The notes under the pieces were generated by a model. It searched no databases. It was not told the DNA's origin and saw only the letters and a program-made list of their open reading frames with translations. A program made the position numbers and the translations under genes. A stretch of DNA of 64,000 nt from Cinnamomum chago (taxonomy: Eukaryota > Streptophyta > Magnoliopsida > Laurales > Lauraceae), in the NCBI GenBank assembly GCA_038049695.1, contig CP142459.1:71604501-71668500 (forward strand). Reading direction: 5' to 3'. Shown piece after piece: positions 24,001 through 60,043 of the stretch. Positions within the stretch are counted from its first letter, which is position 1. Each line of letters begins with the position of its first letter.

Positions 24001-27000
24001 TTTCATTAGAATATGAATACATTGACTGACTGCATGTCTTTATAAAGAACAAAGCAATATCATGTTGCAAAATGATGCCATAGGGACTGTTAAAAAATCC
24101 CATGGGTAAACCCTTAGTACAATATTTAAAAACCTTGAACTCTTAGAACAGTTAAGCATTCTGTAAGAAGAAAGAAGTTAGAAAGGGGATAAGAACGATG
24201 AAGAATGCCTGAAAGATTAGGTGAGCTCAAGGGAATTTCAGAGTTGTGTTTCCTTCTTGACATTGGTGGTTTAACAAATCTGCCAATAAAGGGGAAGATG
24301 AATAAACAATGCAGTACAAATCCTGAAACTGGTATAATCCCACTTGGTAGTGTTAAATTGGTGCTAAACAGAGAGACACTTGTTTTATTTACTGATGTGT
24401 CGCCATACTTCACCTTTGTAGATTAAGAGGGAGCAGAGGTGGATCCATTATCAAAGTAATTTCTTTTTAGGAATTGTGATTATAGTAATACTACTGAGCA
24501 ATGGCGTGTACTTCACTTTGATAGAAGTGAAATAGTTGGTTGAATTTGACTTCCCAGAAGCTATTTCAATGAGACTTCCTTCTTATGTGTCCAAGGTTGC
24601 ATCCTATAACGGGGACTTGAGTTTGACTCCTCGTCTTCTGAAAACAGTGCTTAAGCTTTTTCCCTACTCTGTGTTTTGGCCGCATTGCAGTACAGCCTTT
24701 TGTCCTCAGTTGCTCAACCCAGGTTTAAGCAGTCTAAGTTACCAAGAATAGATAACTGTCTCCTGCTCTGTCATGTTATCCCTACTTTCTCATCATTTGT
24801 TGGGACTTGGGGTGTTGTCATCATTGTCAGCATAATCTTAGCGTTATCCGATCATCCTGGGGTTGGCTATGCAATATATGCTTTACACTTTTGCCTTTGC
24901 TGGACCTAATTGGCACGACTGTGGTAGAACCCAGGTTGAATGAACTCAAGTCGCTTTTGCTGAATTTTTTATGTAAAGCCTGTATCCTTGACAATTCTTC
25001 TTGCGACATGAACTGGCTGCAGAAGGGAATTTCTTTGTTGAAAGGAATCTCAGTGTTTAAGAGTCGCCGTTGTCCTCATCATCATCATCATCAAAGCCTT
25101 GTCCCAACTATGTTGAGGACCTCAGTGTTTAAGAGTATATTATTTTAAATATATTTTCTTTGGGCCATTTGATGCTGGATCTTTTACGCCATTTCTTCTG
25201 TCTTTCCTCATTCCAAAATGAAATAATAATTAGTTAACATTTTCTAGCATTTAAAAAAAAAGCTTTACATATCTTGATGATTTTCTTTCTATCAAGGGGC
25301 AAACTTATCTAAGCCTTGTCCAGCCCAATAAGCTCACTTATAAAGATGCAGAATATGTTTTTTATGATGAAGTTTTCAGGGACAAAAGCAAACTAGATTT
25401 TTGTCTCTCTCAAACAAGTAAAAGATGTTCCTGCCTTTTCTATGCTCAGGACATGCTATTAATTGTCTTTTCCTTTTCAAATTTGATCACGATTACCATT
25501 ATCTGATTGATTTACTTGGTTTGAATGGAAGAGATTCTGTGTGTCTATACTGCTGCATGGGATTTAATACTTTTTTTTTTTTTTGTGAAGATGGGATTTA
25601 ATACTTGTTCTACTGAATAGAAAACTTTCAAATGATGCATTTTTTAAATCTTTTTTTTCCTTGATTGGTTGGCATGAGAAAAAAAATGGTCTTAAACATT
25701 ATTCTAATGAGCTCAAGTGTCTTACATCGCTTTTCCCTCATCTAATTATGTTGAGCTCATCTTTCACATCACTTGGTTTCTTGGTTTGAATGGAAGAGAT
25801 TCTGTGTGTCTATACTGCTGCATGGGATTTAATACTTTTTTTATTTTTTTGTGAAGATGGGATTTAATACTTGTTCTACTGAATAGAAAACTTTCAAATG
25901 ATGCATTTTTTTAATCTTTTTTTTCCTTGATTGGTTGGCATGAGAAAAAAAATGATCTTAAATATTATTCTAATGAGCTCAAGTGTCTTACATCGCTTTT
26001 CCCTCATCTAATTATGTTGAGCTCATCTTTCACATCACTTGGTTTCTTGGGAATTTATTGATAACTTCTGCACAACATTGTCTTGTTTCCTAGGCTATGG
26101 CCAGATGCAGTCAGCCCATCCCTTGCAGCACTTTCAATAATGATGGTTCAATATTTGCATATGCGGTATGTTCTTCCTCCATGTAGTTCAACTCCTGCCA
26201 TTAAATTTGTGTACTCTCGATATGAGGTGAATATTTTGTTATGTTAAACTGGTTTAGGGGCATTTGATACTTTCTTACTTAACTGGTTTAGGGGCATTTG
26301 ATACTTTCTTATGTTAAGTGGTTTAGAAGCATTTGCGTTTGATTTTTTTGTTTCGGTGAGTTATCTTTTTTTGTGTTTTATTGTACTCTATGCTGGAAGT
26401 AAAATGCTGCTGCAGCTACCAACTCTTTCCTGTTTTGTCCTTTTAGTAGTGTTCTTAAATTAAATTTTGTGTTGTGGGAAGTAGAAATATATAAAAAGGA
26501 GCATTTTCGGAATGAGTGATTTGTTTTAGAAAAAATTGAGAATAAATCTTTGCTGATCTTTGTTGCACAATATTTAGCAAAGTGGCACATATATAATTCT
26601 CTGGTATTAGATATCATTATTCTGGTTTTAAGTATTCTAATCTTCTTTATTCCCCCACCATAGAGTACTTTGGTACTGGGTTGCAATTTTTTTCCTTAAG
26701 AAATTGAAATATTCATATTTTTTTATAAAGTGGGGTGATGTCCTCTACTGACTACTTACTGGGCTGTAGATTTTAGTTTATTGACAATAGAGGTCTCGTA
26801 AAGTAGGTATTTTGCAACTCATATAAGTCAGCTTTTGATAGGTTTGTGCAAATTGGTTTGTTTAAATCCTATTTTATTGTTTGTATTTTTATCCTTATTC
26901 CTTACCAATATTTTCCACACAACATGCTTTACATTATTCATGATTTAAATGATGCTCCTTATAATGAAGATGCTTGACCTGAGACTTCTGTTGATGAACT

Positions 27001-30804: not shown

Positions 30805-30840
<36 letters not shown>
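30805..30840. repeat. 36-base guanine homopolymer
   Basis: Thirty-six consecutive G residues lie between CCAT and TTGCACTC. Pure G runs of this length are very rare in plant DNA. Confidence 0.95.
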
Positions 30841-40789: not shown

Positions 40790-42121
40790 CTAGTTTTTTA
40801 GTCCCTCTTCAAAGTAAGAAGCAAAAGCATCCAATTCGGACCTGGGCATTACCAAACCAAACTCAATCCCTCCTTCTTCATCTCTACTATCCCCTATATA
40901 GACACCCTCAATTCTATCAATTGATACCACTTCAGTCTTCCTTGGCCTCCCCCACCCGAAATCCGTTTCATAGACCCGAAACCTTGGTGACCCGGCAACT
41001 ATAAAGATCCTTTTGTTTGCCATAGAAGCATATTTCGGAATCCAATTCTCTGCACCTCTCAATACCCCATCTCCCAGCCTCTCCACTGCCCTTCCTATTG
41101 CTTCCGCCGCGGTCACCAGCCCTTCATCTCCTCCCAAATTCCTCCCATTCGCCTCTGCGAAAATACTCGCGATACAGTTACCAAAGTATGTATCGGGTAC
41201 AGGCGGGTTGAGCCGGGTTCGGCAGTCAGCCCAAAAGGAGAAGCAGACCACTTCATCCGTTACGTCATGACCACGTGCTTTGGCCAGGCAAACCCACACA
41301 TACCCGCATGCCAGTGCAAAGGTCGAGAAACGGATACGATCCGGGTCAACTCGGGCTGTAACGCGTGTCCTCAGCCTCTCAATATCGCAACGGGTGAGGA
41401 CGAACGTAGCCCGGGCCTGGTCGTCGACTTGGGTTCGCACTACGCTCTTCTCGAATTTTATCTGTGCCATCTGGTCAGTGAAGATCTTCTTGAGTGCACC
41501 TGGGTCTTTAATCACAGCTCGAGTGTAAGAGGGGAGTGGTGCGACCGAAGACAAGTCGCCAGTTTTATTTATGGACGACCATGATTTCAAGAAGTGGGTA
41601 AGGCTTCGGCCGTCGGCGGCCACGTGGTGGAAGGAGATGCCGATAGAGATGCCGGCTTTCGGGAAGAGGGTCACTTGCAAGGCCAGCAGAGATGAGGATG
41701 TGGGCAAGCTGGGGACGAGAGGATGGAATCCCTTTGTGTCTTTTGGGTTGTCTGCAACGAGTTGGTGGAAGATTTCGGCTGTGGACTCGGCGACCGTGAG
41801 GGAGACGGAGTCGCCGTCGACGTAGTGGATCTCGTATTCGTCAGTTTGGGGAGAGAGCCTGAGATTAGCAGAGAGAGGGTAGAAGAGTTGGAGGGTGAGG
41901 GAGAGAGAGTGTTTGAGATTTGGAAGGAGAGATTGGAGGAAGTGGGTGGTTGTGATGGTGTTTGGGTCTGAGAATTCGTAGAAGAAGAGACGCTGGACGG
42001 GAGGAATTCGAATCCAGAAGACGTCGAAGAAGGTGAGAGGGAGAGATGTTTCTGGGACCGAGCCTGATGGCGGAGAGACCCGCGAGAGCTCGACAACCTT
42101 CAGCTTCTGGATTACATCCAT
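40790..42121 (-). CDS. BAHD acyltransferase, clade I
   Basis: A single-exon gene of 443 aa. Catalytic HHVAADG (His166, Asp170), YFGNC at 312-316 and DFGWG at 387-391 are intact, so the enzyme is likely active as a CoA-dependent acyltransferase on a glycosylated phenolic. I start at MDVIQKLKVVEL rather than 35 codons upstream: the longer frame would translate a (CT)n-type leader, and the truncated paralog at 48,651 begins MEVIEKLKVVEL at the same position. It belongs to a subtype distinct from the MGET copies. Its leader carries GAGA/CT repeats. Confidence 0.93.
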   Translation of the reverse strand: MDVIQKLKVVELSRVSPPSGSVPETSLPLTFFDVFWIRIPPVQRLFFYEFSDPNTITTTHFLQSLLPNLKHSLSLTLQLFYPLSANLRLSPQTDEYEIHYVDGDSVSLTVAESTAEIFHQLVADNPKDTKGFHPLVPSLPTSSSLLALQVTLFPKAGISIGISFHHVAADGRSLTHFLKSWSSINKTGDLSSVAPLPSYTRAVIKDPGALKKIFTDQMAQIKFEKSVVRTQVDDQARATFVLTRCDIERLRTRVTARVDPDRIRFSTFALACGYVWVCLAKARGHDVTDEVVCFSFWADCRTRLNPPVPDTYFGNCIASIFAEANGRNLGGDEGLVTAAEAIGRAVERLGDGVLRGAENWIPKYASMANKRIFIVAGSPRFRVYETDFGWGRPRKTEVVSIDRIEGVYIGDSRDEEGGIEFGLVMPRSELDAFASYFEEGLKN

Positions 42122-43014
42122 TTGCAGAGAGAGAGAGAGAGAGCGAGCGAGAGATCCTTGGGGCCGTGCCTGAGGACTTGTGTATCGACGACTAAACAGA
42201 TGCACGCATCTATCCTGTTCGTCCAATGTCTGCTTTAGTGCCTTCGATCATTATTTTATGGAAAAACTTTAGTCGTCGATACACAAGCCGATCATGCCTG
42301 GATGTAATGAATTGAAAATTTACTGGAAAACGACGGAATTAATTTGAAAAGTTTCAAAACTTACTTCCTATTTTAGAATAAGACAAAAACTTTATATGCC
42401 TTATTTGAAGTTTTCATGTTGGACCGTTGTGTTTGATTTGAGCCCTGATGCTGTCAAAGCAATAGGTCTTACATATGCATAGTCTTCACTTTCTAAAATA
42501 GTGGGCCCAGCTAAATATGAGATTAGTAAGGAGCTTCACATTAATAAGTTGCTGCATTATGACATTTTATGTGCCCCATATTTAAATAATCACCCATGTG
42601 TATCTGTCTTATTTAATCAGATCGACGATGGATTATTCTTATTTCAATTATGTGTCTTCTCTTCTTTAGATCTAATAAACTACCTCCTAAGTTATGATTT
42701 CAGCTACTTCATTGTCCATGGTAGGAAAAACCCCAATGAAAGAAGTAGGCCTTAATCAACCGTTAATGTGGTAGAGGTGAGTCGATCGGGTCTACGGAGA
42801 GGGGATTCATTTTTAAGTGGTTCATATTTTTAATAAGTAGGCCCATATTGAGTGCCGCTCCCATCACTCTTGGTAAGAAAGAGTCAAGACACTTACAGGA
42901 TCCAATTCAAATACATTCCTAATTTGATCAGAGAGACGAAAATATTTCAAATGTAAGGGACAATCACTAATGTCCTAGATCTTCATAGGTGATGGGCACA
43001 TGATATATATAATA

Positions 43015-44292
43015 GGGGATTTAACCGGAAAAACCCTCTAAAACAGGCTATTAATGAATTTGGCCCCAATAGAAAAGGCCAGACAGAATAGGCCCTAAAT
43101 TGATGTTTCTCTTTTCTTTTTTGTCTTTTAGCGTATAGTCGATATCGACGCTCTCGCCTGAACATTCATTCGTCTCTTCCTCTCTCTCTTATTCTCTCTT
43201 GCTCTCTGCAACTGATCTCAAATCATAATCTTTGAGAAGGGGGAAGAAGGAAAGAGAAAGCTGGTAGGTGTCTGCAGATGAGATGCATGGAGATGGAGGT
43301 GTGCGCAGAGGCTGTGAGGGCGGAGTGCAGCAGTGAAGGAGGGGGAAACGAGAAAAGAAGAGGAGGAAAGAAAGAGAAAAAAGGAAAGAGAGGGAGAAGG
43401 AAGGACGTGGAGTGCAGTGGGTGGGAAAGGGTAGTGCAGGGAGAATGGAGAAGAAGAGGGGGAGAGGGGGAAGGAAGAAAGAAAGAAAGAAATGAAAAAG
43501 GAGGAGAGCCATCTCAGTGGGGTATGCAGGTGGGTGTGCGGTGGCCCATCACGGCTCATCTCCTTCATCTCATCTTCACCATCCCAGGACGCAGACGGTA
43601 GACCTCTCCCTCCTTCTCCTTTGTCCTCTCCGGCCAGCCAACCCACCACTCCTTCATCCTTTCCATCTCCCTCCCATCAACCTCCATCTCACCCTATCCG
43701 TAGCCCTCACGCATCTCCCTTATCTCCACGCAGCCCATCATCAGCTCTTCTTCATCTCCATCTCCACGAGGAATGGAATGCAAGTTCGGAGTCCTTAAAC
43801 CGATCATTTAATTGTATCCATATCAAGCTGGAGGTGTTTTCAAATAAAGCCCATGAAGGTGTTCGATGAAATGACGAAGAGAAAGGAGAAGGAAATTTCA
43901 CGCTCATTTCTCTTATTTTTCTCATAGGAAAGAAGTCTGCTGCTGTTGTGGGGTTTGTCCTTCCTTGATTTTGCTCACTAGAAGATATTGGATGAAATGA
44001 ATTAGAGAACATGAGTGGGGTTTTCATTTCTTGATTTTTGTAATTTTCAAACATAGTTCATGTATATATATTTTGAAATGTAAGGTCAATACACAATGAA
44101 CTTGTAATGTTGTGAATGGTTTCCCCCTATTTGAGATGTTTGAAATGTGTTTGAGGAGTTTGAAAGGTATTTGAAATGTCCGAACTCTTGAGCTTTTGAA
44201 ATGTCTGAGTGAAGGGTCGAAACCTCCCCACCAAAACTCTCTACTATGACGTTCAAGGATGAAATTGGTATTGGTTGAATCGGTGGAAGCAT
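43015..44292 (+). repeat. Left long terminal inverted repeat of the MULE
   Basis: This arm is the reverse complement of about 46,077-47,354, with few differences (for example AACCGG versus AACGGG near the tip and GCGTATAG versus GCGCTATAG). It includes a GA-rich tract at about 43,240-43,500 that creates long spurious open frames on both strands, and one copy of the TAGTCGATATCGA motif at 43,136-43,148. Confidence 0.9.
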
Positions 44293-44344
44293 TTTTTGGA
44301 AGGGTGATGCAAGAGTCAATGTGAACTCTTTTTTTGTTGGTGTT

Positions 44345-44900
44345 AATAGTTGGTGCTTATGTGATAGAAGATGCAGCCGTTCTGTACAGTTTACAGTCTA
44401 CTGAAGCATTTTTTAGAAGGGGGATGCAAGAGTCAATGTGAATTCCTTTTTGGTTGGTGTTCATATTTGATGTTAATGTGATAGAAGATGCAGCCGTTCT
44501 AGACAGTGTACAATCTACTGAAGCATTTTTTGGAAGGGGGATGCAAGAGTCAATGTGAACTCCTTTTTGGTTGGTGTTAATATTTGGTGTTAATGTGATA
44601 GAAGATGCAACCATTCTGGATAGTGTACAGTCTACTGAAGCATTTTTTGGAAATGAGATGAAAGAGTTAATGTGAACTCCTCTTTGGTTGGTGTTAGTAT
44701 TTGGTGTTAATGTGATAGAAGATGTAGCCTTCTGGACAATGTAATCTCTACATGGAAGAGATTTTTTGGATGGGGGATGCCCATGTTAATGTCATCATGT
44801 CCATTTTTATTGGTGTTAATATTTGGTGTTAATGTAATTGATAGAAGATGTAGTCGTGATGGGCTTGCACATTTTGTTGAAGCATTTTTTGGAAGGGCAC
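44345..44900. repeat. 117-bp tandem repeat, about five copies
   Basis: The marker GTGATAGAAGATG recurs at 44,361, 44,478, 44,595 and 44,712, a constant 117-bp period, with a fifth, more diverged unit near 44,836. Each unit also carries GAAGCATTTTTTGGAAGGG and GTCAATGTGAAC blocks. The period is a multiple of three (39 codons), and part of the array is open on the minus strand. The array lies in the MULE interior next to the left arm. Confidence 0.9.
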
Positions 44901-45098
44901 AAGTGTTAAACATACTTTTTCCTTTTATAAAGATCACCCTTTTTTGGGGTTATATGTTGTTGAGAACTTATCTATGATAATATAATGGTTGTTTGTATTG
45001 TCCCGCTAATGATTTTTTATTTTTTTCCACTTTTATTATTGAAAATGATTAGCAAACCCCATCTAGAGCTACACTTAGTAAGTTATAGTATTATAACA

Positions 45099-45378
45099 TA
45101 GTCGATATCGACTATGACTGTGTTTTTTATGTTTCAGCTAAATAGTCGATATCGACTATGACTGTGTTTTTTATGTTTCAGTTAAATAGTCGATATCGAC
45201 AATGACAATAGTCGATATCGACTATGACTGTGTTTTTTATGTTTCAGCTAAATAGTCGATATCGACTATGACAATAGTCGATATCGACTATGACTGTGTT
45301 TTTTATGTTTCAGCTAAATAGTCGATATCGACTATGACTGTGTTTTTTAGGCTTCAGCTAAATAGTCGATATCGACTA
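45099..45378. repeat. Array of eight palindromic TAGTCGATATCGACTA motifs
   Basis: Eight copies of the 16-base palindrome (one with a single change, GACAA for GACTA) occur within 280 bp. They are mostly separated by TGACTGTGTTTTTTATG and TTTCAGCTAAA-type spacers, some by only TGACAA. Two further copies of the core (GTCGATATCGAC) sit near the outer ends of the two MULE arms (43,138 and 47,219). Confidence 0.9.
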
Positions 45379-45379
45379 T

Positions 45380-46076
45380 TGGTCGTATTAAACAAACCAG
45401 AGAATGATACATTCTATTGTCCTAAACATTGTTCTGAATACATTGGTGCATTCCATTCACACATTCAATTAACAACCATACATTAACATACCATTCAATT
45501 TCAAATAATTATACATGATGTTTCACAATATAAATCCAACTGCCCAAAACTATAGAAGTTCCACAACCACTGCCCACAAGTTCCACAATTTTAATTACGA
45601 AGTAAAGAAAGTAAGTATCTATGTTTGGCCTCTCCTTCTACTGCCCAAAAAACCTTCACAAAACTTCTTCTAACCAGTTAAGAGAATTACATCAAACTAG
45701 CATTCACTTGTCAACTTCTTTTAAATAACTCAATGACAATTCTGCTACGGAAGTAAGGGATGTCAGACTGTGTAAATGTGATAGGACGACAGTGAACACA
45801 ATGCTCTGCGAATGCCACAGTGAAAACTTCGTAGTGATTACAATTGTCTTGATGATGAATGTCTTCTTTAAACAGGATAGTCCATAAAAATGGATTCGTC
45901 CAGTACTTTATTTAAATCGTTGCTAGATACCATGGTACAAATACCGGCTAGTTCATCATCTCTACATGAAAGAGATGTTTGTTAATAAAACACAATGCTA
46001 CAGATATTAATGAAGATGGGTACTACATGAAAGTAATGAGGAAAAATTAGTATAGAGTTTTGGTGGGGAAGGTTTC
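45380..46076. other. Unique interior of the MULE, no gene recognised
   Basis: AT-rich sequence with no ORF of note and no transposase motif. It could be a captured host fragment, but I recognise nothing in it. Confidence 0.5.
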
Positions 46077-47354
46077 ATCCGACTCATTTCGCAACTTCCA
46101 CTGATTTAGCCAATACCAATTTCATCCTTGAACGTCATAGTTGAAAGTTTTGGTGGGGAAGGTTTCAGTCCTTCACTCAGACATTTCAAAAGCTCAAGAG
46201 TTTCAGACATCTCAAACACATTTCAAACATCTCAAATAGGGGGAAACCATTCAAAACATTACAAGTTCATTATGTATTGACCTTACATTTCAAAATATAT
46301 ATACATGAAATATGTTTGAAAATTACAAAAATCAAGAAATGAAAACCCCACTCATGTTCTCTAATTCCTTTCATCCAATATCTCCTAGTGAGCAAAATCA
46401 AGGAAGGACAAACCCCACAACAGCAGCAGACTTCTTTCCCATCAGAAAAATAAAAGAAATGAGCGTGAAATTTCCTTCTCCTTTCTCTTCGTCATTTCAT
46501 CGAACACCTTCATGGGCTTTATTTGAAAACACCTCCAGCTTGATATGGATACAATTAAATGATCGGTTTAAGGACTCCGAACTTGCATTCCATTCCTCGT
46601 GGAGATGGAGATGAAGAAGAGCTGATGATGGGCTGCGTGGAGATAAGGGAGATGCGTGAGGGCTACGGATAGGGTGAGATGGAGGTTGATGGGAGGGAGA
46701 TGGAAAGGATGAAGGAGTGGTGGGTTGGCTGGCCGGAGAGGACAAAGGAGAAGGAGGGAGAGGTCTGCCGTCTGCGTCCTGGGATGGTGAAGATGAGATG
46801 AAGGAGATGAGCCGTGATGGGCCACCGCACACCCACCTGCATACCCCACTGAGATGGCTCTCCTCCTTTTTCATTTCTTTCTTTCTTTCTTCCTTCCCCC
46901 TCTCCCCCTCTTCTTCTCCATTCTCCCTGCACTACCCTTTGCCACCCACTGCACTCCACGTCCTTCCTTCTCCCTCTCTTTCCTTTTTTTTCTCTTTCTT
47001 TCCTCCTCTTCTTTTCTCGTTTCCCCCTCCTTCACTGCTGCACTCCGCCCTCACAGCCTCTGCGCACACCTCCATCTCCATGCATCTCATCTGCAGACAC
47101 CTACCAGCTTTCTCTTTCCTTCTTCCCCCTTCTCAAAGATTATGATTTGAGATCAGTTGCAGAGAGCAAGAGAGAATAAGAGAGAGAGGAAGAGACGAAT
47201 GAATGTTCAGGCGAGAGCGTCGATATCGACTATAGCGCTAAAAGACAAAAAAGAAAAGAGAAACATCAATTTAGGGCCTATTCTGTCTGGCCTTTTCTAT
47301 TGGGGCCAAATTCATTAATAGCCTGTTTTAGAGGGTTTTTCCCGTTAAATCCCC
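46077..47354 (-). repeat. Right long terminal inverted repeat of the MULE
   Basis: Mirror of 43,015-44,292. The translated spurious frames of the two arms differ at only a few residues, giving an estimated identity of about 97-98 percent by eye. Confidence 0.9.
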
Positions 47355-48507
47355 TATATAATATTGATGGAAGACTATGACCATTTCCAATTAGGAAAAA
47401 AAAAAACAGAGGACCAATGCAAACGTCACCAAGTCTTGTAAAATAAAAAATCCCAAACTCCTATCCCCAACCCAGCAAACACTGGGAAATGACACCCACA
47501 TTGTGCTTATGCTTAAACGTTTGCTTATTAATAAGAGTGATGATGATGGTGGTGGTTGTGGTGAAATAATAATAATTATAATAATAATTAGTACCCCGTC
47601 AGGTTATCCTAGCTCATGGGGCTATATAATGATAATCCTGACCATTCATCTTGAATATCATCCCCTCCAATGACAAATTCTAAAATCTCACTTTCATAGT
47701 ATTTCATCCTACCTTAGCTTGCATACATGACTGAAACAGTGGTCAGCACAATCTATATATTAATCAGATACTTTAATCTTATTATCAATCATGTGCACAA
47801 TCTAATGGTGGGACGAACGCCAATTCATGTGAAACTTGAAAATATATATGTCATTAGAGGGGATGAGATTCACGCTTAACAGTCCGGATTATCATCTTAT
47901 GGGCCGCACAATGGAGTTCTAAATGCGACAACGATCCAAATTCGGGTTGGGACAGATGGAAAGGTCCTCATCTCCTTAAGAATTGAGTTCCAGCCTTGTT
48001 AGTATCCGCAGGTAGCACCAACGTATTAATACTAAAAGGACAGGTTAGAAGTCAAATTTAAAATTAGAAGAGAAACATTGGTAAAAAGTTAATATAAACT
48101 GGTCAAATTTAGTAAAAAATCTGTTTATCCTCTTTTACATCAACAAATTGTGATAATTACCGAACGACATTAATCATGGCGGTCAAAGCAGTTTGGACCA
48201 ACCTGTAGACCTTTTTGACCTATGAGTATGAAAAGCGGTTCAAAATAAAATCTCAAATCTCTCCCGGTATGTCACATATCCTGGTAATGTTAAAGTGACA
48301 TCAACTTTATCTTGGGAGGGTGTTTATTTTGATTGACTCGTATTTTTAAAGCATGGACTCCCTTGTAAAGTTCAACTCTATGTATGATAATTGGATCGAC
48401 CAAGCCTCAATCTCCTCCAGATTTTCTTCGATTCAGTTCTCAGAGAACTCTTGGAATCTTCCTTCCAGCCTTTCCGGCGACCTTAAAGGGATAAAATTCC
48501 AGAAGAA

Positions 48508-48651
48508 GTAGAAGAAGAGACGCCGGACGGGTGGAATATGCAACCATAAGACATCGAAGAAGGTAAGAGGGAGAGATGTTTCTGGGACTGAGCCTTGTGG
48601 TGGAGAGACCCGCGAGAGCTCGACCACCTTCAGCTTCTCGATTACTTCCAT
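48508..48651 (-). pseudogene. Truncated BAHD acyltransferase, first 48 codons only
   Basis: The frame begins MEVIEKLKVVELSRVSPP and matches the gene at 40,790-42,121 codon for codon through RLFFY (residue 48). It then breaks into unrelated sequence and stops at 48,433. The HxxxD and DFGWG regions are absent, so no enzyme can be made. The breakpoint at about 48,507 follows a purine/CT-rich GAAGAAG stretch. It is the minus-strand member of a former divergent pair with the gene at 58,691. Confidence 0.9.
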
Positions 48652-48659
48652 TTGAGAGA

Positions 48660-49545: not shown

Positions 49546-49619
<74 letters not shown>
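49546..49619. repeat. Long (TA)n microsatellite
   Basis: About 37 uninterrupted TA units, at the boundary where spacer-2 similarity to spacer 1 resumes. Confidence 0.95.
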
Positions 49620-58380: not shown

Positions 58381-58690
58381 CAAGCTTAACAGTGATTTCT
58401 AGCCTTTTTAGAATCCGCAGCAGACAGATGCCGGCCAACAGTTTGTAAAAACCCATTGTCTTTGAGTTGCAGCTAGGGTCTACTGGATCTTGTGGTAACG
58501 GCAACTTATTACTATGCATGGAACTCAGTTGAAACCTGGTTTTTAGATGATGAAATCTCTAAGTCCTCTAAGCTGACACACACATTAATAAAAGAAGGGA
58601 GAGCATAAATTTATATCAATCAAGACAAACACAATAAAACACACTCAGACACTCTATTATATCACTATCTCGATCTATTGAGAAGAGAAG
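58381..58690 (+). promoter_or_regulatory. 5' region of the plus-strand BAHD gene
   Basis: The 310 bp between the TG...CA element and the ATG contain the end of the paralogous spacer (AAGCTTAACAGT, AGAATCCGCAG). AT-rich ATAAATTTATATC at about 58,607-58,619 is a candidate TATA box some 75 bp before the start. The 5.2-kb insertion therefore sits about 315 bp upstream of the coding sequence. Confidence 0.5.
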
Positions 58691-60043
58691 ATGGGAGAGA
58701 CCAACATGGTGAAGGTGCTGGAGCTCTCTACAGTTTCTCCCCCTCCCCCACCAGGGTCAGCTGCAGAAACATATCTTCCTCTCACCTTCTTCGACGTCTC
58801 CTGGTTACAACTCCCTTCCGTCCAACGCATCTTCTTGTACGAATTCTCAGACCCAAACACCACCACCACCTCCCACTTCCTCCACTCCCTCCTCCCAAAT
58901 CTCAAACACTCCCTCTCCCTTGCCCTCCAACTCTTCTATCCTCTCTGTGGAAACCTCACTCTCTCCCCACAAACTGGCTTTCCTGAAATCCACTACATCG
59001 CTGGTGACTCCGTCTCATTTTCCGCCGTCGAGTCCGCCGCCGACTTCCACCATCTCGTATCAAACTACCCGAAAGACCCTGCTGAATTCCACACTCTCGT
59101 CCCCAGCTTACCCAACTCCACCGCCTTACTCTCCTTGCAAGTCACCTTATTTCCAAACTCCGGCATCTGCATTGGTTTCTGCCTACACCATGTGGCCGCC
59201 GATGGCCGGAGTGTGAACCACTTCATGAAATCATGGTCGTCGATCAATCGGACTGGAGACATGTCTTTAATCGCAGCCGTCCCCATCTACGACAGGGACT
59301 TGGTTAAAGACCCCAACGGATTGAAGAGACTCTTCATGGATCAGATGGAAGAATACATGCTCTGGAAGAACGTAGAGCAGATGGCTGTTCCAAAGGTGGA
59401 GAAACCGCTCCGGGCCACGTTCGTTCTCACTCGATCCGACATCGAGAGGCTGAAGCAAAGGGCCATGGCACGACCCGACTCGACTGAGAAACCGTTACGC
59501 TGCTCCACTTTTGCTGCAGCATGCGGGTACGTTTGGGTCTGCTTGATCAAAGCACGTGGATACGTAGAAGACAAGACAGTCTATTTTACCGCCCCGGTAG
59601 ACTGCCGAACCCGGCTCGACCCGCCGATACCAAATCCGTATTTTGGAAACTGTATCACCGCTGCAACCGCCAAGGCGCCAGGGAGAGATTTGGCAGGGAA
59701 AAATGGGTTGGCGACTGCATCGGAGGCGATAGGTAGAGCTGTGGAAGAGCTGAGAGAGGGGGTGCTGAAAGGCGCAGAGAACTGGATCCCGAACTTTGCT
59801 TCATTTGCCAACGAGCATATCGTATCGGTTGCCGGGTCGCCGAGGTTTCGGGTCTACGACACGGATTTCGGGTGGGGAAGGCCAAGGAAGACGGAAGTGG
59901 TATCAATTGATGGAACGGGCGCCGTATACATTGGGGACAGCAGAGATGAAGAGGGTGGGATTGAGTTTGGTTTGGTACTCCCCACATCCGAAATGAGTGC
60001 CTTTTCTTCTCTCTTTGAAGAGGGCCAAAAATCTGATTATTAG
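58691..60043 (+). CDS. BAHD acyltransferase, clade I
   Basis: A single-exon gene of 450 aa. HHVAADG (His167, Asp171), YFGNC (317-321) and DFGWG (392-396) are intact. It starts MGETNMVKVLEL, co-linear with the minus-strand gene at 37,655, and shares long identical blocks with it (for example RSDIERLKQR, FRVYDTDFGWGRPRKTEVVS). A run of five prolines near residue 20 is longer than in the paralogs. Substrate is not readable; glycosylated flavonoids or simple phenolics with malonyl- or hydroxycinnamoyl-CoA are the family norm. It is transcribed away from the truncated copy at 48,651. Transposon sequence begins about 300 bp past its stop. Confidence 0.95.
   Translation: MGETNMVKVLELSTVSPPPPPGSAAETYLPLTFFDVSWLQLPSVQRIFLYEFSDPNTTTTSHFLHSLLPNLKHSLSLALQLFYPLCGNLTLSPQTGFPEIHYIAGDSVSFSAVESAADFHHLVSNYPKDPAEFHTLVPSLPNSTALLSLQVTLFPNSGICIGFCLHHVAADGRSVNHFMKSWSSINRTGDMSLIAAVPIYDRDLVKDPNGLKRLFMDQMEEYMLWKNVEQMAVPKVEKPLRATFVLTRSDIERLKQRAMARPDSTEKPLRCSTFAAACGYVWVCLIKARGYVEDKTVYFTAPVDCRTRLDPPIPNPYFGNCITAATAKAPGRDLAGKNGLATASEAIGRAVEELREGVLKGAENWIPNFASFANEHIVSVAGSPRFRVYDTDFGWGRPRKTEVVSIDGTGAVYIGDSRDEEGGIEFGLVLPTSEMSAFSSLFEEGQKSDY

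Follow-up and report, generated by a model that had tools for sequence, protein, structure and literature searches.

The window analysed here, a 64,000-nucleotide stretch of Cinnamomum chago DNA, carries three open reading frames that match the Transferase family PF02458 (36315-37748 and 40790-42247 on the minus strand, 58682-60043 on the plus strand; E 9e-50 to 9e-54), which we take to be BAHD-type acyltransferases, and these frames form a local gene cluster around a MULE. A 125-nt direct repeat, 88% identical, flanks the element (42000-42124 and 48530-48654) and is perhaps part of a transferase gene duplication. Elsewhere in the window there are a 266-bp tandem duplication (25507-26050, 97% matches), a run of 36 G (30805-30840) and 37 TA units (49546-49619).

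The MULE is non-autonomous and internally deleted, and spans 4,340 bp (43015..47354; a strand is given below only for features to which one was assigned). It is bounded on both sides by a 9-bp direct repeat, the target-site duplication TATATAATA (left, 43006..43014; right, 47355..47363); its ends begin GGGGATTTAAC, and its terminal segment reads GGGG...AAAAACCC. The left arm (43015..44289, plus strand) and the right arm (46095..47354, minus strand), each defined by alignment to the other, are terminal inverted repeats (TIRs) of about 1.28 kb that are identical in 1,237 of 1,282 alignment columns. Each arm holds the palindrome GTCGATATCGAC, at 43138..43149, 123 bp from the left end, and at 47219..47230, 124 bp from the right end. 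The internal part comprises 5.2 tandem repeats of 117 bp (44286..44897), a central array of eight palindromes (45099..45378) and, on the minus strand, the remnant of an Ulp1 (C48) coding exon of an accessory gene (45690..45902). No transposase match was found in this copy.

The internal parts of the window element match those of an autonomous relative, element A, which is 12.05 kb long and lies within C1:12394500-12410000 (loci L019 and L020); its copy B (L024 and L025) is 98.35% identical to it over a 12.15-kb alignment. Element A encodes an 869-aa transposase (PF10551, 6.1e-19; PF03108, DBD_Tnp_Mut, 3.6e-13; SWIM, 7.2e-9) and, on the opposite strand, accessory exons in which two exons match the plant mobile domain (PMD, PF10536; 1e-41 and 7.1e-10) and a further match, on the same strand as these, is to the Ulp1 C48 domain (PF02902, 1.6e-11). 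An Ulp1 domain beside a MULE transposase, the arrangement known from KIU, is thus present in element A and as a remnant in the window copy, and PMD is encoded inside element A, as in MULEs that have captured this domain. The transposase and PMD-Ulp1 genes converge, with a palindrome array between their 3′ ends, and all 13 motifs in element A (up to two mismatches) lie either in this array or 123 and 124 bp from the ends. Its TIRs are 138 bp long, 72% identical, and stop at the palindrome core; those of the window family measure about 1.28 kb. Four of the five accessory open frames scanned (from element A and L023) match PMD or Peptidase_C48 and one matches nothing, and neither DUF1985 nor DUF287, the domains of VANC, was found in them at E ≤ 0.01, where some exons may be missing.

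Target-site duplications of the Mutator superfamily are mostly 9 bp long, and duplications of this length flank the window element, element A (TATTTTTTA) and copy B (TTAATGAAA). Together with the TIRs and the MULE transposase carried by relatives, they bear out the original prediction that the element is a MULE. The 117-bp repeats of the window are those found directly downstream of the element A transposase gene, and repeats of 85-116 bp akin to them occur in L032, L033, L035, L036 and L037; the Ulp1 remnant matches the C48 domain of element A at 77% over 71 aa (tblastn). The window MULE retains the array, the Ulp1 exon remnant and the repeats that adjoin the 3′ end of the transposase gene; as read from its sequence, it therefore arose by internal deletion from a MULE of 12 kb in which transposase and PMD-Ulp1 genes converge.

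Palindromic sites in the window and in related elements

The array at 45099-45378 contains eight copies, as had been predicted, of which seven are the exact 16-mer TAGTCGATATCGACTA and one, at 45187 (...GACAA), has a single mismatch. Successive palindromes are 44, 44, 22, 44, 22, 44 and 44 bp apart. The claim that the same core lies near both outer ends holds for the 12-mer, which is exact at both arm sites; the full 16-mer differs there at two positions. The 16-mer is matched ten times in the window when up to three mismatches are allowed (mean over 100 shuffles, 0.10), a count in which the two arm sites represent one independent occurrence, the arms being inverted copies of each other, and in which the array copies, as a tandem repeat, are likewise not independent. 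The array unit and the arm share 16 of the 22 bases that flank the core, a level reached in 1 of 20,000 shuffles, and therefore probably share an origin, one having seeded the other.

To what extent the sites belong to the MULE group can be judged from six loci with diverged transposases that were picked, with the motif ignored, from 65 listed transposase rows (C8:3761325, C9:6745564, C3:3890695, C11:8722639, C2:65431772 and C5:16940906). In the downstream stretches (L032-L037, 2.0-2.2 kb each), an array with up to two mismatches was found at all six loci and exact cores at five, two of the arrays being largely degenerate (exact cores in 0 of 12 copies in L032 and 1 of 13 in L036). In the upstream stretches (L058-L063), the end motif was found at five loci, exact at four and as two one-mismatch copies in L062, and no motif was found within 1.9 kb at the L059 end. 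A convergent accessory match, to Ulp1 or PMD, is present in five of the six downstream stretches; Ulp1 was not seen in L034, which has a PMD match, or in L035, which has no accessory match within 2.1 kb. The motif is thus present in related elements, where its absence would have spoken against the original prediction. In L060, six more copies (up to two mismatches) lie outside the element end, at 354-657, and probably belong to a neighbouring element of the same MULE group.

Six control MULEs were chosen for long open frames from 150 listed PF10551 rows and were judged to be of other lineages by their higher scores alone (109-128 bits, against 68.7 for element A). In the stretches read downstream, about 0.5-3 kb beyond the domain, none of the six has a site at up to two mismatches. 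Any 10-bp palindrome repeated at least three times was found at none of the controls, against four of the six diverged transposase loci; one control (L065) carries a 140-bp tandem repeat.

The position of the end sites is also regular. The end word was found in 38 of 43 scored end candidates, and the palindrome lies at a median distance of 125 bp from the end; of these 38 ends, 22 have it at 123-126 bp and 36 at 117-141 bp. Many of the candidates are related copies and most were chosen by having the motif, so that the unbiased part of this evidence is the six loci chosen by transposase. At some ends two palindromes lie 21-23 bp apart (L029, 3739/3760; L060, 1147/1170; L062, 884/905), the same spacing as that of close pairs in the arrays.

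Throughout the genome (1.06 Gb in 14 contigs) the core GTCGATATCGAC occurs 3,092 times. The reversed core occurs 29 times, GTCGTATACGAC, a control palindrome with the composition and CpG content of the core, 7 times, and GTCGTATACGAC reversed 50 times; the exact 16-mer TAGTCGATATCGACTA occurs 1,201 times and its control is absent. Abundance outside the family had been named as a reason to doubt the prediction, and the word is indeed abundant; yet of 20 core sites on C1 that were singly listed, 15 have the element-end word of this MULE group 100-159 bp outward (by a fuzzy match; 85 of 1,000 random positions), two of them weakly (L044 and L048, six substitutions each). These 20 sites sample a small fraction of the 3,092: nine come from a listing of the core, two of which (L045 and L046) are 1.4 kb apart, and eleven from a listing of GGTCGATATCGACC, which are alone only among GGTCGATATCGACC sites, L047 holding a second core. 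Among the sites with no end word, L049 and L052 have in common an internal context that is also present in L028 and L031, and L038 sits among degenerate copies. Some exact cores (e.g., C1:5027774 and C1:9166051) have no second one within 10 kb, which indicates that not every derivative needs the array. Ten GGTCGATATCGACC sites spaced every ~12.92 kb at C1:34189675-34306044 form a tandem macro-repeat with one site per unit.

Symmetry, centre and spacing of the sites

Positions on either side of the core change in pairs. In a first test, 78 of 110 contexts were symmetric where 44.1 were expected, many of the loci (L016-L027 and L047-L057) having been picked by the symmetric words TAGTCGATATCGACTA or GGTCGATATCGACC. 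The test was therefore repeated with 25 loci for which either the plain 12-mer or the transposase had served as the criterion. Of their 50 contexts, 32 are symmetric at ±7 (17.2 expected; none of 5,000 shuffles as high), with G, A and T all among the states, and 35 are symmetric at ±9 (28.9 expected; 35 of 5,000 shuffles as high); these values overstate independence, since the families are related. No excess was found at ±8 or ±10 in this repeat. At the loci picked by transposase alone the signal at ±7 is weaker (15 of 25 symmetric, 10.4 expected, 142 of 5,000 shuffles). The families with ATAG..CTAT, ATGG..CCAT and ATTG..CAAT have, respectively, the states A-T, G-C and T-A at ±7. Of the 3,092 cores in the genome, at least 2,058 are symmetric at this position (1,201 TAG..CTA, 651 G..C and 206 T..A), a lower bound in which the A..T state enters only as TAG..CTA, without a count of AGTCGATATCGACT; with independent sides, these counts predict a symmetric fraction of at most 0.456.

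The central TA is altered in only 2 of 90 locus-level changes among degenerate copies. The spacings between palindromes (up to one mismatch, 126 intervals) cluster at 21-23, 32-33, 42-45, 54-56, 65-66, 73-77, 86-93 and 98 bp. For the 23 distinct spacing values, the Rayleigh test gives p = 0.0007 at 10.5 bp per turn and 0.098 at 10.0; neighbouring values and their sums are not independent and relatedness of the families inflates this test as well, so that helical phasing is suggestive only. Element A and L034 have homologous linkers (none of 1,000 shuffles reached the observed similarity), which means that the arrays partly share descent, and between the linkers of element A and those of the family with a 98-bp unit there is no detectable homology (432 of 1,000 shuffles as high).

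Taken together, the paired change about the dyad, the rigid centre and the spacing near whole turns would suit a homodimer that sits on one face of the DNA, and a word that is concentrated in one MULE group and changes by family suggests that this protein is encoded by the element. The original prediction had proposed a binding site for a dimeric protein, such as a transposase or a host silencing factor; the dimeric part gains indirect support from the symmetric change at ±7, the TA centre, the helical spacing and the sharing of the word across families, all of them features of sequence. Its alternative, a cruciform or slippage alone, is disfavoured.

Candidate binding proteins and comparison with known systems

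We propose, with about even confidence, that AT[A/G/T]-GTCGATATCGAC-[T/C/A]AT is the binding site of a homodimer that is encoded by the MULE group and keeps noncoding parts of the element open or unmethylated. In a full element a single site, or at times a pair, is found about 125 bp inside either end, upstream of the two genes, both of which read inward; further sites form an array in the stretch that separates the 3′ ends of the convergent transposase and PMD-Ulp1 genes. Neighbouring dimers would occupy the array at intervals of about two helical turns, and dimers would also occupy the end sites; once bound, they would hold the noncoding parts in an open or unmethylated state, in the manner of VANC on Arabidopsis VANDALs, and the element and its deletion derivatives would thereby stay expressible and mobile. 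As to the binder, we lean towards the PMD-Ulp1 accessory protein, with the transposase a close second, and anti-silencing is perhaps the effect of its binding. This preference draws on the noncoding targets of VANC, the motifs of Ulp1-carrying VANC, the capture of PMD by MULEs, and host PMD proteins.

In the passages available from the VANDAL study (PMC5735166), tandem repeats of a motif are bound by VANC, with targets in noncoding parts, and arrays of the VANC21 motif in Arabidopsis VANDALs were examined by EMSA. VANDAL21 and VANDAL6 resemble the elements described here in belonging to a MULE group, in having an accessory gene adjoining the transposase, and in that repeat number and unit vary between related copies. 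They differ in that the VANC motifs given there, YAGTATTAY and AGTTGTCC/AC, are not identical to the palindrome GTCGATATCGAC, in that VANDALs are non-TIR whereas TIRs of 138 bp (element A) and about 1.28 kb (window) carry one site each here, and in that VANC has DUF1985/DUF287 in place of PMD-Ulp1 (PMC5735166). According to the parts of a review consulted, Ulp1-carrying VANC genes also act through motifs, and motif-directed hypomethylation is reported for KIU (PMC13317346). KIU likewise has Ulp1 (C48) in a MULE accessory gene, but belongs to non-TIR VANDALs, and here the Ulp1 exon comes after the plant mobile domain (PMC13317346). In passages of a further study, PMD was captured by MULEs twice and its authors speculated on anti-silencing; PMD is MULE-encoded there as here, but in transposase fusions of several grasses and Amborella rather than in a separate convergent gene, and these passages name no cis target (PMC5418596). 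Host PMD proteins have been tied, in the portions seen, to a promoter word and to the silencing of transposable elements (PMC7156037).

Motif arrays outside the VANDALs are also described. Short subterminal tandem repeats occur in 10 of 12 long-TIR MULE families of mosquitoes (PMC5225508, in part). In Muta1 of Aedes aegypti and its relatives they are inherited by derivatives, as here, but lie inside the TIRs and not centrally, and the same passages mention no accessory gene (PMC5225508). The earlier view that no MULE with such an array had been described therefore cannot stand as worded, given both groups (PMC5735166, PMC5225508). A central array between convergent genes, a palindromic word and a PMD-Ulp1 partner are absent from the consulted parts of both descriptions (PMC5735166, PMC5225508), and the layout did not appear among the matches listed for MULE arrays, Ulp1, PMD and palindromes in a literature that includes few subscription papers. 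Four spellings of the word together matched 31 papers, and among the 20 of these that were listed the 16-mer TAGTCGATATCGACTA was absent and GTCGATATCGAC was present in two. Multiple-TIR MULEs (PMC3310237, in part) were considered and do not match, the array unit being 22-98 bp long and not a TIR. On its sequence features, the layout would thus add the palindrome, the central position between convergent genes and the PMD-Ulp1 partner to the known MULE motif arrays.

Spm/En is of the CACTA superfamily, unlike the MULE here, and the sites of its TnpA are subterminal with a 12-bp motif. As in the reading proposed here, an element protein activates its element, in correlation with demethylation, in the parts of the account consulted (PMC10398659).

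More tentatively, these elements may represent a PMD-Ulp1 MULE lineage with an anti-silencing system of its own, distinct from VANC, in which a dimer of PMD-Ulp1 reads helically phased arrays placed between the genes as well as one or two end sites, and in which each family's protein and word co-evolve by symmetric change at ±7.

The set distance to the element end makes the transposase a serious competitor, since such a distance is no less expected of a transposase site than of an anti-silencing site. That the palindrome is the transposase's own site, with the end copies acting in the transposition complex and the array titrating or regulating the enzyme, is possible but rather doubtful. End copies recur at this distance despite differing linkers, and the transposase has a DBD_Tnp_Mut domain, presumably grouped with WRKY-GCM1 zinc fingers; the W-box is TTGAC[C/T], which the half-site TCGAC[T/C/A] resembles. 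MURA itself lowers TIR methylation, according to passages of PMC10398659. Cutting, however, needs no internal array between genes, and the model of the DNA-binding domain is poor (pLDDT 55). A PDB sequence search gave two retroviral nucleocapsid/Gag chains (E 0.018 and 0.079).

It is improbable that a host transcription or silencing factor binds the palindrome, with the element either borrowing it or being its target. A palindromic, CpG-containing word would suit a host dimer, and transposons are known to amplify host motifs, such as E2F sites in MITEs (PMC13317346, in part); but most of the singly listed sites lie near the end word of this MULE group, and symmetric change between families is more readily explained if the word co-evolves with an element protein than if a fixed host protein reads it. 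We consider it very improbable that a chance palindrome was multiplied once by slippage and spread with the element without function, even though the arrays have a tandem 22/44/66-bp structure, decay in old copies and share linker descent in element A and L034, because the core was kept while linkers changed length, beyond detectable similarity between element A and the 98-bp-unit family, because single end copies stand at a set distance, and because passive spread leaves the ±7 symmetry, the TA centre and the helical spacing unaccounted for. A hairpin or cruciform, in DNA or in the RNA of two converging transcripts, is the least credible reading and is rejected as the main one, since the would-be loop, the central TA, is the least variable part, the end copies lie outside coding parts and Rfam gives no match at gathering scores (42900-47500), for all that the word is a perfect 18-bp palindrome and the ±7 changes would also preserve a stem.

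If the palindrome is indeed read by an element-encoded dimer, it would give the proposed anti-silencing role of MULE-captured PMD a concrete candidate target in cis. Motif-guided anti-silencing would then not be confined to VANDALs but would include TIR-bearing MULEs that use a different accessory protein, and the three variants at ±7 would be natural specificity variants. The genome offers the exact word, a set layout and at least 19 transposase copies at 98-100% identity over their full length, of which at least 18 have no stop, and this near-identity indicates that the MULE group moved recently. Two pairs of transposase copies on C3 (28373597/28635032 and 28565133/28826572) are each 261.4 kb apart and may reflect a segmental duplication or an assembly duplication.
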